Below are positions 7,801 through 29,171 of a stretch of DNA of 31,111 nt, piece after piece. The notes under the pieces are model-generated. The model was not told where the DNA came from and did not search any database. It was given only the letters and a program-made list of their open reading frames with translations. The first letter of the stretch is position 1. Each line of letters begins with the position of its first letter. The translations under genes and the position numbers were made by a program. The DNA comes from a virus. The stretch covers positions 1 to 31,111 of the IMG/VR virus record IMGVR_UViG_3300027851_000089. One strand, written 5' to 3'.

Positions 7801-9960
7801 CAGCGCTTTCTTTTCGAGGCCGGTGGAGAGGTCACTCATAACCCGGTCAAATTCCATCACCATAGAAATGATGTCTTTGAATTGACCGTTCTGGTCGCGT
7901 AGCTTCATCCCCACGCTTTCCATTGCCTTAGCGACTTTCGGGGTACGTTCGCTCAAGTCAGCGTACATGTTTCGCAGAGCGGTACCTGCAGCCGAACCCT
8001 GAATACCAAGGTTGGAGAGTGCAGCCAAGCCGACACCAACGTCCTCTAGCGAAATTCCGTACTGTTTGTTGATCACAGAGGCGGTCTTAAACGCTTCTCC
8101 GATAGACTCCACAGAGGACTTAGATACTGCCGCTGTTTTAGCGATAATGTCACCAACGTAGTTGTACCCGGTAGCCGCGATACCAAACGCAGTTGCCACT
8201 GAAGTCATCACATCAGCAGCAGTTTTAAGGTCAGTAGTGCCAGCAACTGCGAAGTTCAGTACATCCTTGATGGCAGAGCCAACAGAGGCAGCGTCCAGAC
8301 CAGCCAGCGACAATGTTTTCATCGCGTCTGCGATGGCCTGGGGACCGAATGGCCCACTACGAGCCAGTTCCAGCATCTGATCGTTCAGGGCTGCGACAGA
8401 GGCTGTGGTTTCCTGCGACAGCACACGAATGGTTTCCATCGTGTTCTGCACTTCAGCGCCCATCGTCACAACCGATTTCACACCGTAGCTGATAGCCGCG
8501 CCAGTAAACAGCGGGGCAAGGTTGCCCCAGGTGAGCCACAGCAGGTTAAAGCCAGAGGCAAGTCCTCGGGCCATAGAGTGTGCGTCGTTGCCGTCAACGG
8601 TCATGGCACGGAAGACGCGACCCAAGGCGCTGCCTTTCTTACCTGCGTCATCCATCGCACCGCTGCCTTCGCGCAGTCGTGCGAAGAAACCCTTGGTTGC
8701 GTTACCTGCTTTTTCTTCTTCTTGGTAGAACTGACGCATACTGCCCATAGCTTCGGCGTACTTCATGTCGCCAAGGTCCATGCGGCTAATCTTCATAGGC
8801 GTCTGCTGAATAGCACTCGCCATCTGAGCTTTCAGCTGTGCAGCGAAAGTCTTCATTTCCGCCCTACTCGGCAGGCCGAAAAGGCTTCGGGTGTCTTCTT
8901 CTGTCATCTTAGACGCAGACGCTGCCCGCAGCTTTTCTTTCGCCATCGACTCCTGCATCTGCGACTTGATCTGAGCCGCAAGTTGCACCATCGAGTCACG
9001 ATCAGGCATACCCAGCAACGCACGTGTATCGTCAACCGACATACGAGTAGCAGACTTACCCCGCAGACCTTCCGTCTTGAGTGCGTCTTGCATCTGCGAC
9101 TTAATTTGCGCAGCAAGTTGCACCATCGAGTCACGATCAGGCATACCCAGCAACGCACGTGTATCGTCAACCGACATCTTCGTGGCAGACTTAGCCCGTT
9201 GACCTTCAGTCTTCAGTGCGTCTTGCATCTGCGACTTAATCTGTGCAGCAAGCTGCACCATCGAGTCACGATCAGGCATACCCAGCAACGCACGTGTATC
9301 GTCAACCGACATCTTCGTGGCAGACTTAGCCCGTTGACCTTCAGTCTTCAGTGCGTCTTGCATCTGCGACTTAATCTGTGCAGCAAGCTGCACCATCGAG
9401 TCACGATCAGGCATACCCAGCAACGCACGTGTATCGTCAACCGACATTCGTGTGGCCTGCTTGCCTCGCATGTTTTGGCTCCCTACCTGCAGCCTGAGCA
9501 TGTTGTGGTAGCCTGCAAGGTCTTGCTGTAGCGCCTTAAGGTTGGCCTTAGCCGACTTACTGAGCGCGGTGGTTTCTTTTTCAACGACGGCGGCAGAGTC
9601 TTTCATACCCTGAGCAACGCCTACACCGGCAGCAGCGCCTGCAGCCACGCCGCCGCTTTGCATCACAGCAGCAAGTTGCTTGAACTCGTTCTTCAGCAGC
9701 CGTTCCAGACCCTTGAAATTGTCACCGATGCCTTTACGCATTTCTGCAGTCGCATCCGTGAAGCCTTTAGCGGCAGTGGCAAGTTCTTCCAGGGCAGAGC
9801 CTTTGCCTTTGAGGCCTACCAGAATCTTGCGCAACTCTTCTAGCGACTTTCCAGACCCGGCACCAGCGTTGAGCGTGCCTGTCAACTTGTCAATTACATT
9901 GCCAAGTTTGTCGAGGTCTTGTACGCCTTTTACTTCAATGGTGTAACTAAGATCGGACAT
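1822..9960 (-). CDS. Tape measure protein (2712 residues, two internal repeat families)
   Basis: The protein fixes tail length during tube assembly and is ejected with the DNA. Residues about 500-700 are a recognisable TP901-type tape-measure domain (GPFGPQAIADAMKTLSLAGL through LSNLGIQGSAAGTALRNMY and SERTPKVAKAME). Residues about 845-917 are strongly hydrophobic. The C-terminus has a GYRxF-like NPDIRAFFDANQ..HFATYGIAEGR module and the usual GGVHTGGWAMVGEQGPELV ending. Two repeat families stand out: five 45-residue copies near residues 171-395 (KMSVDDTRALLGMPDRDSMV type) and five copies of about 70 residues near residues 1830-2180 (LGL..L......AAEY.AQLVALGQA..NIAAVEAW). A poly-glycine run lies near residue 2500. 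The length is far above lambda gpH (853 residues). The start lacks a good Shine-Dalgarno sequence and sits at the foot of a long hairpin. Confidence 0.95.
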   Translation of the reverse strand: MSDLSYTIEVKGVQDLDKLGNVIDKLTGTLNAGAGSGKSLEELRKILVGLKGKGSALEELATAAKGFTDATAEMRKGIGDNFKGLERLLKNEFKQLAAVMQSGGVAAGAAAGVGVAQGMKDSAAVVEKETTALSKSAKANLKALQQDLAGYHNMLRLQVGSQNMRGKQATRMSVDDTRALLGMPDRDSMVQLAAQIKSQMQDALKTEGQRAKSATKMSVDDTRALLGMPDRDSMVQLAAQIKSQMQDALKTEGQRAKSATKMSVDDTRALLGMPDRDSMVQLAAQIKSQMQDALKTEGLRGKSATRMSVDDTRALLGMPDRDSMVQLAAQIKSQMQESMAKEKLRAASASKMTEEDTRSLFGLPSRAEMKTFAAQLKAQMASAIQQTPMKISRMDLGDMKYAEAMGSMRQFYQEEEKAGNATKGFFARLREGSGAMDDAGKKGSALGRVFRAMTVDGNDAHSMARGLASGFNLLWLTWGNLAPLFTGAAISYGVKSVVTMGAEVQNTMETIRVLSQETTASVAALNDQMLELARSGPFGPQAIADAMKTLSLAGLDAASVGSAIKDVLNFAVAGTTDLKTAADVMTSVATAFGIAATGYNYVGDIIAKTAAVSKSSVESIGEAFKTASVINKQYGISLEDVGVGLAALSNLGIQGSAAGTALRNMYADLSERTPKVAKAMESVGMKLRDQNGQFKDIISMVMEFDRVMSDLSTGLEKKALLRDVLSERGAKPLIELRDLATRVAKEVGTTTMTELEKLKARIVDSAGFMANAAAEMAMTPLNQMKSVTASLQATLVEAFNGLAPVILQVTARLKEAFASEEFKTGLATLMQLVSSLTIAIVENIGTLTKLAAAFALFKGTQIVLGIFNSITMAVAGMTAAFTGLTIKAVAASTLFTRLIGLFNPITAVLTVAYTAWQLYSIYTDKANKSTEQAATSGYHDQLIAKLEEETKRLNENTEAMRLNISVDELRAQREGRKLADAAQDSRRGAINSARANIGKAQSDYDKLAATPFAQTGAGARELVILAKRVETARDDLWKLVQNNMAQDARMDSAKQSLKNAAQENADEVRRQAAIKAAIEAARVGPNTYKPIDPYGGDKTALKAVSAVRQNLMKETEEANRNELAAIKTHYDSKQRLLKSQADNQLISQGEFVMREIALTKEAEDKQLQALIVGAEKYKKAYETQAEALSDSFSEWVEKNPAATAEQYRKQLADTQTAMANIGRDYNTTIAKMAQDGKAIKDNAFERLTMSANKAKGELIALERQFEEFWKKEENRAAQQGRATAVEDQLRYASPEQAAYIQATATEFERLQPEIEKTERQLDLLNKSWEFFIELEASSGALGAEQQIEFDALREKIRVYREELDKLREAQGKGTGKAGEDALTKFGKEEAKRLQDGVADSIMTGLLEGGKAGRKKLRDLVVNELKKPIKLVVDVVANMAMRGLGMLIPGGAAAGGSSAGGSSALDGFGSLGTALQAYGGFTAGASAASLGAANLVGAAGGDALGALIAGNGGWAGVGTAAGSLMSTIATVAPYLAALGAVVSLVKSFKTPGEQHTGGFYSSSGKTGMDAALAVTGGEAAARDLVKRATPEMEKLAKTAVEGVIKSSTEQAKLLGMNIAVGIDAGFAANTNGEAKNKNAFGYFDVTINGETVSEYVNRELGEDLTKAVSTWTSDMQDAVSEWMLGGKDAAAELAKDGETATQTVARLSSSLVLVNEAFATMGKDLLTASVASGAFASSIVDAFGGQDSFAGAHQAYFQTYYTEAERAAAITRNLSSQFAGMNLTLPTTNAEYRALVEAQDLNTEAGRDNYAMLLKLAPAFNQVTEAGAAAAEKAAEAASLILGLNGEVADLSLTDLQREIKAVNDKAAEYTAQLVTLGQASAANIAAVESWKQAMLDNIAAAKKAEAGTLLGGLNREVIDLGLTELEKEFNSVNERAAEYTAQLVALGQASTENIAAVEAWRAAMVANITAGKQAQAQTLVSGLKLEVSNLGLSDIQLQLNAVTAKAAEYVIQLVSLGQATTENIAVVDAWKNAMLENINSNYQQQQTEDATAMLRKLGKEVASLGLSDLQKELANVNDQADEYKAQLVELGQATVANVAAVDAWREAMLANILETKRLQAEALLGGLDSEVATLGLSPLNAELASIKQKSQEYVAQLTELGQATDSNIASVEAWEQAMTDNAIRNAVDSFVGGMADTIQEGLLGRISGSEAGGKVADIITNGIYNALAQGAAQQITNILTQGIISPIIQAALTGQSVTGLVSSASISAVVEQAKVALAAIGQVLNDPAIQQMMGEIGTSVAALFSGYNAPTLPSYTPIVKDSNEAADAARDAAQDAFDALQKAVEAQRELAQEQLDSLTRVRDIARQASNELYGFKGDSGMSLVQAQAFIANAAQNAQLTGYMPDADMLEEAVEVLKEQLTTNKYATKLDYDLAKLSAAAQLDAIADVADPQITALESQLESLDEILKTAQLQLDALNGINSSVLSVADALAAFNAALQMPGNIGSGGGGGGGGGGVYKPATPAQMFKNMTTTDSLGNVHAATATGSGNSWNYRSQSGANTSTLTGGVWTPSSYAAKNPDIRAFFDANQEAIEYYKQPTNFSDYLAWHFATYGIAEGRKFATGGVHTGGWAMVGEQGPELVHMPAGRVYNNGQTQDILAGDSAAAAEIAALRQEIDEMRAEVRATAVNTGKTQRLLDRITRNGESMQVTVVA
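3420..4455. repeat. Five diverged repeats of about 70 codons in the tape measure gene
   Basis: The encoded protein shows five successive copies of a helical unit with the recurring core LGL.(D/E)L...L..V...A.EY.AQLV.LGQA...NIA.V.AW..AM..NI. DNA identity between units is much lower than in the 135-bp family, so these are older duplications. The regular spacing suits an extended helical rod. Confidence 0.85.
8887..9448. repeat. Tandem 135-bp repeats within the tape measure gene
   Basis: Four nearly identical 135-bp units keep exact phase: the marker sequence CACGTGTATCGTCAACCGAC starts near 9021, 9156, 9291 and 9426. A fifth, diverged unit lies on the left side (8887-9000). Each unit encodes 45 residues in frame. 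Near-identity at the DNA level, including synonymous positions, points to recent duplication by recombination or slippage. Gain or loss of a unit would change the protein by 45 residues without a frameshift. Confidence 0.95.
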
Positions 9961-26581: not shown

Positions 26582-26746
26582 TAACAGCAAAGTTCAGAAA
26601 AGTTGTAGCGATGGCGAACACAGGAGAAGGCTGCAGCCGGCCGTTTCATAGGTGAAACCCTATACGTCACCGGCCAAGTTATCCACAAAGTTATCCACAA
26701 CCCCTACCTGTGGATAACTACATGAGCAGGTGTTAATAACCTTCAG

Positions 26747-26766
26747 TGTAGGGTAGTTACCCCACA
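26747..26766. promoter_or_regulatory. Imperfect 20-bp palindrome inside the DnaA-box region
   Basis: TGTAGGGTA and TACCCCACA flank a 2-bp centre with one mismatch between arms. It lies in the gap between the two groups of DnaA boxes and could bind a phage regulator or initiator. Confidence 0.4.
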
Positions 26767-26880
26767 ATGTAGCGCTTCACTGGCGCCGATCTGGTGCGTT
26801 CTAGAGGCATGTATGTCCATACAGTATCGACGCTTATCCACAACTTATCCACAACCTTATCCACAGAGTTATCCACAGAC

Positions 26881-26892
26881 TCTTATATAAGA
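26881..26892. promoter_or_regulatory. TCTTATATAAGA palindrome, copy 1
   Basis: This 12-bp perfect palindrome lies between DnaA boxes. The same sequence, within a shared 15-base word ACTCTTATATAAGAC, recurs at 30894-30905. Two exact copies 4 kb apart in an otherwise dissimilar context suggest a common protein-binding site or promoter element. Confidence 0.5.
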
Positions 26893-26920
26893 CTGAGTTA
26901 TCCACACCCCTGTGGATAAC

Positions 26921-27044: not shown

Positions 27045-27138
27045 GGCGCCGTGCATATCGCTGCACAGACAATGCACCAAAATGGTGCATACACCAAAAA
27101 CCCGCGCCGCTATATAGGCGCAACTCTGAAAGCCTCAA

Positions 27139-27804
27139 ATGCAAAACGCAACCGCAACCGCAACCGCAACCGCAACCGCAACCCGCGCCGCCCGTTCTAT
27201 GGTGCATGTTCGTGCCATGTTCCCCGATTGCTTCACCTTGTCAATTCTTGACGCGGTAACGTCAATCTACGACAAGGGCGCCGCCCTTGAGGTTCTGGCC
27301 CGCGCCATTGTAGGCGCCGCCCTTGAGTTTGGGCATAGTGGAAATGATGCCCGCGTGAAGCAATCCCGCGAAGCCTTGCAAGGCAAAGGGAAAGGCGCAC
27401 AAGTCCGCGCCCGCGCCGTTCTGGCGCTTGACGCTGTGCGCGATAGCCTCAAGGCGCGGGAACTGTGCGCCCTTGACGATGGCGCCTTGATTGAGTGGGC
27501 CAGCATGGCCCATGCCCGCGCCGTTGACGCGTTGACGCCACCCGCCCGCGCCGCGAAACCCGCAACCGCAACCGATGGCGCAACCGCAACCGCAACCGAT
27601 GGCGCAACCGCAACCGATGGCGCAACCGATGGCGCAACCGATGGCGCAACCGATGGCGCAACCGCGCCGCAACCGCTGCCCACCGTGCCCGATGTTTCCT
27701 TGATTGTCGCCGCAATCAAGGCGGGCGCATACGATGGCGCAGCCCTTGAGGCCATCATGGGCGCAATCGCAACCGCAACCGCAACCGCAACCGCAACCGC
27801 ATAA
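27139..27804 (+). CDS. Low-complexity Ala/Thr/Asp-repeat protein of unknown function
   Basis: This open frame of 221 residues follows the promoter at 27015. The ends are Thr-Ala runs encoded by GCAACC hexamer tracts, and the middle has an (DGAT)n run. Between them, residues about 28-130 look like ordinary helical protein (FPDCFTLSILDAVTSIYDKG, then LEVLARAIVGAALEFG and VRARAVLALDAVRDSLKARE). I see no good ribosome-binding site; GCC ATG inside the frame near 27197 and 27215 are alternative starts. Because low-complexity DNA keeps several frames open, coding is plausible but not certain. No family recognised. Slippage in the hexamers would change length in whole codons pairs, not the frame. Confidence 0.45.
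   Translation: MQNATATATATATATRAARSMVHVRAMFPDCFTLSILDAVTSIYDKGAALEVLARAIVGAALEFGHSGNDARVKQSREALQGKGKGAQVRARAVLALDAVRDSLKARELCALDDGALIEWASMAHARAVDALTPPARAAKPATATDGATATATDGATATDGATDGATDGATDGATAPQPLPTVPDVSLIVAAIKAGAYDGAALEAIMGAIATATATATATA
27146..27804 (+). repeat. GCAACC hexamer tracts and GATGGCGCAACC repeats
   Basis: Three simple-repeat blocks are present: about six GCAACC units at 27148-27183, a mixed block of GCAACC and the 12-mer GATGGCGCAACC at 27570-27663, and about six GCAACC units at 27775-27800. They bracket and interrupt the 221-codon frame. Such tracts are prone to slippage and may drive length variation. Confidence 0.9.
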
Positions 27805-27835
27805 CCCGCAACCCGCGCCCGCTAGGATAGCGGGC

Positions 27836-27869
27836 GCCTATAACTATCGGTCAACCGATAGTTATAGGC
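27836..27869. terminator. Perfect 16-bp palindrome downstream of the 221-codon ORF
   Basis: GCCTATAACTATCGGT and its exact complement are separated by two bases (CA). It begins 32 bases after the ORF stop. There is no U-run on either strand, so it is not a standard terminator; a protein-binding site, cruciform, or RNA-stabilising stem is possible. The enclosed word CCGATA recurs at 27979, 28159 and 28211. Confidence 0.5.
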
Positions 27870-27987
27870 CATCGCCTAGGGTTTGCCATCACGCAACCCG
27901 CCCGCCCGGTCCATTGGATGCCCGCGCCGCTCACGCCGCGCCCGCTGAAAATGCGACCCAGCACCAGCACATTAAAAACCGATAAGG

Positions 27988-28130
27988 CAACCGCGCCCGC
28001 TAGGGCAGACGCTAGGGCAGACGCTAGGGCAGACGCTAGGGCAGACGCTAGGGCAGACGCTAGGGCAGACGCTAGGGCAGACGCTAGGGCAGACGCTAGG
28101 GCAGACGCTAGGGCAGACAGTGCGCGGTTG
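27988..28130. repeat. Ten exact 12-bp tandem repeats enclosed by a 9-bp inverted repeat
   Basis: The unit GCTAGGGCAGAC is repeated ten times without a single change from 27999 to 28118. The array is bracketed by CAACCGCGC (27988-27996) and its complement GCGCGGTTG (28122-28130). As DNA, spacing near one helical turn is iteron- or centromere-like. As RNA, the flanks would close a large loop displaying ten copies. It also keeps open frames on both strands (ADAR repeats on plus, ASAL repeats on minus). Confidence 0.95.
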
Positions 28131-28138
28131 TAGAAACT

Positions 28139-28378
28139 ATGGGAAAGCAAAACCAAAAACCGATAATGACGAAACCCGCGCCGCTACATGCCGCGCCCGT
28201 TGACTCATTGTCCGATAATCAGGCTTTGCGGAACCATAGCGGAAAACTTATCGGGCACATACGCGCCACCCGCTACCCTTTGCGGCATGGCGCACCACAC
28301 ATTACAAAATCACGTTATTCGGGCCGGTTGCCCGTCGCACGTAGTACGGCATTATTTGTCAATGGCTCTATCGGTTAG
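28139..28378 (+). CDS. Doubtful small ORF after the tandem array
   Basis: This 79-residue frame starts MGKQNQKPIMTKPAPLHAAP and contains LRNHSGKLIGHIRATRYPLR and HITKSRYSGRLPVARSTALF. The composition is protein-like and basic in its second half. There is no recognisable ribosome-binding sequence and no family match that I know. An overlapping frame in another phase (28188-28568) is also open, so coding here remains uncertain. Confidence 0.33.
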   Translation: MGKQNQKPIMTKPAPLHAAPVDSLSDNQALRNHSGKLIGHIRATRYPLRHGAPHITKSRYSGRLPVARSTALFVNGSIG

Positions 28379-28389
28379 CGCCCGGTATC

Positions 28390-29090
28390 CTATGGCTGTC
28401 TTGCGGGAAAGTGCAAAATATCGTTGCGTGATGTGTGGCCCCGACAGTGGACAAATACTAGGCTTGCGGAACACGCCTAGTATCCGTGGCGTATGCGAAC
28501 AGGTTAACCCCACATGCATACTCGCCCACCAATTACATTTAGCATCCCTGCAAGCGTTTCTTGTGTAGGATAGGTCGGAGACTGTGACCCTTATTCGCTA
28601 GGATATTGGGTAGTCGCCCTTGAAATACGACCCTAGAAACGCCCCTGCATATGCTTGAACAGCAGCAAGTTTCGAGGATACTTCCGCAGTATCGTCGATC
28701 ACACTTGCGGGCTATGCCAGCGACTCACACCACACGCAAGGTTATGCTTTGCGCGTTTGGCTCAATGGCAGCGTTGACCACGATGTAATCTCAAGCGATC
28801 AGCCGAACTGTCCGTGATCTGACAAATCACGTTAATCTACGCCCTGAAACCGTGGCGAGTAACGGTTAAGTCCTTGCGGATATGTGACATATCCGTGGCA
28901 ACTGCCCCTAGAATCGCAGTCACGACCCGTCAGCGTGGAATACTGACTCAACCCTTAACTGTTCTTACGCCTAGACGCTAAATAAGGCTACTTGCGGGTC
29001 CAGCAAGTCTGTTCACACTAAGGCGCTGAATGTGCGCTGAAACATTCAAACACAACATATCGGGCAGTCGATGCCCAATCTCATAGCATG
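28390..29090 (+). ncRNA. Candidate large structured RNA
   Basis: From about 28390 to 29090 there is no convincing coding frame, but there are hairpins along the whole length. Examples are ATACTAGGC/GCCTAGTAT (28455-28483), GATACT/AGTATC (28677-28692), CGCAA/TTGCG (28735-28752) and CGTGAT/ATCACG (28813-28830). AACCG/CGGTT (28848-28867), GGATAT/ATATCC (28878-28894), GTCAG/CTGAC, ACTTGC/GCAAGT (28990-29008), GAATGT/ACATTC and GGGCA/TGCCC complete the series. The word CTTGCGG recurs five times, twice in the module CTTGCGGA-N-TATCCGTGGC. A 23S-like segment is embedded. Phage-borne large RNAs such as GOLLD and ROOL are of similar size, but I cannot assign this one to either. Ends are approximate. 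Confidence 0.5.
28562..28634 (+). ncRNA. Segment resembling 23S rRNA helices 75-79 (L1-stalk base)
   Basis: TGTGTAGGATAGGT, then CGGAGACTGTGA and, 36 bases later, AGTCGCCCTTGAAATACGACC match bacterial 23S rRNA (TGTGTAGGATAGGTGGGAG... and ...GCCCTTGAAATACCACC, about E. coli 2090-2200, from memory). The rRNA pair GGTGG/CCACC appears here as GGTCG (28573-28577) and CGACC (28628-28632): both sides changed and pairing kept. GACT/AGTC and ACCC/GGGT continue the stem. The distal stalk that binds protein L1 is replaced by a 17-base loop. The rest of domain V is not recognisable. Confidence 0.6.
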
Positions 29091-29092
29091 GA

Positions 29093-29148
29093 TGCGGCCT
29101 AAGCAAGTCTTAGGCCGCAAACTTAAGCAACACCAATGCTTAAGTTTG
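29093..29148. promoter_or_regulatory. Two adjacent strong hairpins before the small-gene pair
   Basis: TGCGGCCTAAG/CTTAGGCCGCA (29093-29119) and CAAACTTAAGCA/TGCTTAAGTTTG (29118-29148) stand back to back. They lie just upstream of the ribosome-binding site of the gene at 29172. They could end the structured RNA, mark a processing site, or shield the 5' end of the downstream message. No U-run follows. Confidence 0.6.
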
Positions 29149-29171
29149 CCCACCACTCTGAAAGGAAAATC

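Follow-up and report, generated by a model that had tools for sequence, protein, structure and literature searches.

A perfect 12-bp tandem array next to a structured-RNA-like region of an uncultured tailed phage is probably a young non-coding minisatellite

The intergenic tandem repeats of Borgs (PMC9879509) are the closest described counterparts of the array reported here, which resembles them in its perfect head-to-tail units, in its recent formation, in being absent from or different in relatives, and in having a unit that is not shared between genomes. Further points of likeness to Borgs are periods that are multiples of three within genes and not necessarily so between genes, partial unit copies at the borders, and arrays at contig ends, whereas Borg units are A-rich and the present genome is that of a tailed phage with a GC-rich unit and few arrays per genome. 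Bacterial minisatellites, or VNTR loci, likewise have short perfect units in non-coding, length-tolerant places, the copy number here being taken from one assembly. Plasmid and phage iterons have a unit of about 17-22 bp; the likeness lies in direct repeats that share their arm with DnaA boxes, but the array has a 12-13-bp unit and is not conserved in syntenic relatives, and no initiator was found among the proteins tested. Lastly, the phage RNAs GOLLD and ROOL (PMC12286853) are comparable as large, ornate-looking phage non-coding RNAs with a variable linker, although the RNA-like region described below matches neither in Rfam and has no tRNA cluster.

The window, i.e. the whole stretch of DNA analysed, has 31,111 bases, comes from an IMG/VR virus record, and is linear and probably incomplete. 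Its structural genes (terminase, portal and capsid, identified by PHROGs) are oriented leftward. Rightward from a small-terminase-like gene there follow a non-coding stretch with DnaA boxes, a gene at 27139-27804, two hairpins, the array, an 860-nt ORF-poor region and a small gene. The features around the array are:

26679-26919, no strand assigned: nine perfect DnaA boxes, TTATCCACA, clustered, a candidate replication origin
27139-27804, + strand: small Ala/Thr-rich gene upstream of the array, function unassigned, coding score +0.27, with internal in-frame 6- and 12-bp repeats
27815-27869, + strand: tandem hairpin pair directly after this gene, without a U-tract
27988-27996, no strand assigned: left arm of the inverted repeat, CAACCGCGC, also within a dispersed element
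27998-28117, + strand: tandem array of ten identical 12-bp units, CGCTAGGGCAGA, TRF score 242, 100% matches
28122-28130, no strand assigned: right arm of the inverted repeat, GCGCGGTTG
28300-29160, + strand: structured-RNA-like ORF-poor region with a fold z of -4.2 and two hairpins at its end (29093-29149)

The frequency of CTAG in the window (positions 1-29170) differs between its parts, this tetranucleotide being scarce in the structural half, at 0.87 per kb against 3.8 expected, and as frequent as expected in the non-coding sequence of the right arm (3.9 per kb, array excluded). The tape-measure-like gene carries a 135-bp in-frame repeat at 8954-9447 (3.7 copies, 95%).

Coordinates and a reverse-complement check confirm as exact the ten identical repeats and the 9-bp inverted repeat of the preliminary description. 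Units start at 27998, 28010 and so on to 28106, the left arm lies 1 nt before the array and the right arm 4 nt after it, and the left arm is the exact reverse complement of the right. An array of this kind, with ten copies as counted in one metagenome assembly, is far beyond chance expectation, and it has the form of a minisatellite, namely at least three near-identical head-to-tail units over at least 50 nt. The inverted repeat is only mildly unlikely, at about 0.4-1% by chance for this position: an exact 9-bp inverted repeat occurred in 0.35%, 0.8% and 4% of draws of equal-sized flanks from the same region (12, 20 and 50 nt, respectively), frequencies that are uncorrected for the choice of the feature after inspection. 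Elsewhere in the 31 kb there is no copy of the unit with up to two mismatches, except one 2-mismatch site in the structural half. Ten perfect units without a family of degenerate copies agree with the very recent expansion proposed earlier, and the array is non-coding, on the same strand as the structured-RNA-like region and in line with it. Exact-array scans of IMG/VR with the window unit and with the 13-bp unit of a relative (below) matched no other phage.

Terminase and TerS scans recovered about a dozen related contigs, among them L006, whose TerS is 87% identical; only four of the contigs reach this region: L004, L009 and the near-identical L010 and L011, making three lineages besides the window. 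All have TerL/TerS, a divergent intergenic region and a small gene whose stop is directly followed by hairpins; the hairpins of L004, L009 and L011 were identified by inspection. The small genes (L004 354-1151, L011 7243-7893 and L009 1726-2319, all on the - strand) are in the same place as 27139-27804 of the window; those of L004 and L011 are 51% identical. No significant match was obtained for the window gene, given its divergence and biased composition, so its equivalence to the others rests on position. In-frame tandem repeats are abundant in the window and L004 genes, and no convincing Pfam or PHROG match was found for the window gene or its positional counterparts. TerL scans of bacterial genomes found no host or prophage, and among annotated phages there was no DNA relative apart from DnaA boxes, the terminase matches being distant only.

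Comparison of the array between related phages, as proposed in the preliminary description, shows that it is not conserved. In L009 and L010/L011 there is no 12-13-bp array, and the small gene and its hairpins lead straight into an ORF-poor region of 800-950 nt whose predicted fold is more stable than those of its shuffles; the window and L011 align only weakly at this point, so the array insertion is placed approximately. In L004 the same slot does contain an array. It lies roughly 100-180 bases past the hairpins, consists of 12.8 units of 13 bp (CCAGCGGCTCAGG) and runs off the contig end before the 3' flank. Its unit is not significantly similar to the 12-bp unit of the window (44 of 300 shuffles score as well). 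Thus in syntenic relatives the array is absent or has another unit, as seen across the four lineages in which the slot is visible, L004 being cut off at its array.

The left boundary of the array resembles three nearby non-coding copies of a dispersed element, A-ACCCGCGCC-GCTA, with the general pattern AACC(C)GCGCC(C)GCTA(GG). All four copies of the element are in non-coding gaps, and a direct repeat brackets the array:

27096-27112, + strand: element copy 1, AAAAACCCGCGCCGCTA
27810-27826, + strand: element copy 2, AACCCGCGCCCGCTAGG, 5' half of hairpin 1
27989-28004, + strand: element copy 3, AACCGCGCCCGCTAGG, left boundary of the array and its likely seed
28172-28186, + strand: element copy 4, AAACCCGCGCCGCTA
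27974-27985 and 28155-28166, + strand: AAAAACCGATAA, direct repeat bracketing the array

The last seven bases of copy 3, CGCTAGG, are the first seven of the array unit. Since the left arm belongs to an element that also occurs without an array, and the unit begins with the last bases of that element, growth from the element end is the simplest origin of the array. Its position, its non-coding character, its absence or different period in relatives and the resemblance of its boundary to nearby copies lead us to think it probable that the array is a young non-coding minisatellite, grown from a copy of the dispersed element in a tolerant linker. The CGCTAGG end of one copy would have been the seed, extended by replication slippage or unequal recombination, and the site that took it up would be a length-tolerant linker between a small gene with two 3' hairpins and a structured RNA of 800-950 nt. 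If the linker is transcribed, the array may form a self-paired arm 5' of that RNA, closed at the base by the two 9-mers, and its length and sequence probably matter little. Against a minisatellite count the exact inverted repeat, given its low chance frequency, the array in the same slot of two lineages, which could have a function there, the small number of lineages (four) in which the slot is visible, and the weak alignment of the window with L011.

Other short arrays, unrelated to this one, occur in the same non-coding arm of related contigs: (GTCTTAT)5 in L003, 14- and 23-bp repeats in L009, 25- and 28-bp repeats in L011, a 50-bp repeat in two copies in L017, and (CGGT)27 in L018. The main in-gene tandem repeats here have periods of 6, 9, 12, 15, 21, 66 and 135, all multiples of three.

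The best surviving alternative, which we consider much less likely than a minisatellite, is that the array is a functional arm of the downstream RNA, transcribed jointly with it and folded into an extended imperfect rod that the 9-bp helix closes, as a spacer or a repeated protein-binding platform. The array is on the same strand as the RNA-like region and in line with it, the array that L004 has in this slot would likewise be self-paired, and GOLLD and ROOL cages contain variable, disordered linkers (PMC12286853). In the predicted fold of 27805-29165 the two arms pair with a probability of about 0.96, which bears out one part of the earlier proposal that the inverted repeat would hold the array in one loop of ten sites; the other part is not supported, since about 54% of the array bases pair within the array in that fold, which gives a self-paired arm in place of an open loop with ten exposed sites. 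Arm pairing depends on context, however, falling to 0.3 or near zero in some shorter stretches, the latter (0.001) with 150-nt flanks. The array also folds on itself no better than arrays of shuffled units (81% of shuffles fold as well or better), by which a conserved hairpin-forming unit is rejected. A CsrA/RsmA sponge was likewise rejected, as it requires repeated GGA and the unit and its junctions contain AGGG and no GGA. Further against a functional arm, the units are not conserved, transcription is presumed only, and the RNA-like region occurs without the array in L009 and L010/L011. Its counterparts there are at 690-1640 of L009 (- strand, fold z -2.6) and 6360-7180 of L011 (- strand, fold z -3.9). 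Sequence conservation between the window and L011 regions is above all 60 shuffles, and between those of the window and L009 it is not above shuffles. The region is a candidate new large phage RNA; GOLLD and ROOL covariance models of Rfam did not match it. A TTGCGG motif recurs in it seven times in the window, three times in L011 and twice in L009, and its terminal hairpins are clear in the window and L011.

Somewhat less likely again is that the copy number is an assembly artefact, with a real array that is longer or variable and has been collapsed to ten clean units. The window is a metagenome contig, and assemblers often collapse such tandem repeats (PMC9879509). Three related contigs end inside tandem repeats (L018:1-109, (CGGT)27; L008:1-31, 9-bp; L004:1-167, 13-bp), which points to repeats as a cause of broken assemblies in these phages. 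On the other hand, the present contig passes through the array to unique sequence on both sides.

As DNA, the array had been suggested to be an iteron or partition site, that is, a set of iterons for a replication initiator or the partition centromere of a phage-plasmid. It does consist of perfect direct repeats, and nine DnaA boxes lie in the same arm at a distance of about 1.1-1.3 kb; clusters of three to eight perfect boxes each are also found in L003, L004, L006, L010 and L011. Yet the syntenic L010 and L011 have DnaA boxes and no array, so that related replicons sharing the origin have not kept the repeats; L004 has another unit and another period; neither degenerate nor inverted copies form a family elsewhere; and no initiator or ParA/ParB family was found among the tested proteins of the L011 early genes and the window right arm, both genomes being incomplete. 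The suggestion is not supported on this evidence, and iterons, parS and, as discussed below, a protein are all unlikely, with a DNA site of this type having perhaps half the appeal of the RNA arm. The DnaA boxes, together with a TCTTATATAAGA palindrome, would likely constitute a DnaA-dependent phage origin. This palindrome adjoins the DnaA-box cluster, and L009 has copies of it and no DnaA box.

Within the RNA-like region, a BLAST match to 23S rRNA led to a short Rfam run on 321 bases, which identified one further feature:

28554-28642, + strand: complete, well-preserved 23S rRNA L1-stalk module (H75-H79) inside the RNA-like region

This segment corresponds to positions 2127-2214 of LSU_rRNA_bacteria (50.0 bits, E 3.1e-14), and our own covariance model, trained on eight 23S sequences from bacteria with the phage left out, finds it in the window with 73 bits (E 7.7e-17). 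The module has both the sequence and the pairing of H75-H79. It keeps the closing helix and the invariant GUGUAGGAUAGGU..GGAG..CUUGAAAUAC.ACCCU, 89.8% of cells pair on the joint alignment of 23S and phage, a value reached by none of 500 shuffles, and one G-C pair that is otherwise constant is replaced by C-G in the phage, which is a compensatory change. With our model, L009, L010, L011 and nine further related contigs gave no score above noise, and there was no further rRNA match in the rest of the RNA-like region. The module escaped Rfam when the query was the whole window or a 4.6-kb stretch, so empty Rfam runs on long stretches are no proof of absence. Ribosomal protein uL1 binds H76-H78 of 23S rRNA and is regulated by mRNA mimics of that site (PMC10931766), which makes a uL1 decoy a natural hypothesis; judged from its sequence, the phage module is possibly such a putative decoy. 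More speculatively, and with still less confidence than we give to a DNA site, the array may be the repeat-built 5' arm of a new large phage RNA, in which the L1-stalk mimic would be a protein-catching head and the repeated rod a spacer or multivalent scaffold, for uL1 sequestration or docking on translation components during infection.

The array also lies in an open frame:

27918-28133, + strand: (ADAR)n open frame of 71 codons, judged untranslated

By codon statistics trained on 8,597 codons from the window's genes, the frame scores -0.21 bits per codon (-0.53 in its non-repeat part), against +0.09 to +0.37 for real genes, and its repeat arginines are ten AGG codons, AGG making up 5.6% of Arg codons. 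Translation as an ADAR-repeat protein, which by the preliminary description would have counted against its reading, is therefore very improbable despite the open frame, a period divisible by three and the in-frame repeats in genuine genes of the phage, given this negative score, the rare codons, the lack of an upstream ribosome-binding site, the absence of the frame from L009 and L011, and the 13-bp period of L004, which is incompatible with frame-preserving expansion.

A young non-coding minisatellite, as we favour, would mean that Borg-like tandem repeats also arise in a lineage of uncultured phages, with periods in multiples of three inside genes and of any length outside them. The L1-stalk module is of more interest than the array and deserves follow-up; if this RNA is produced, mimicry of a ribosomal protein-binding site by a phage could be tested directly on it.
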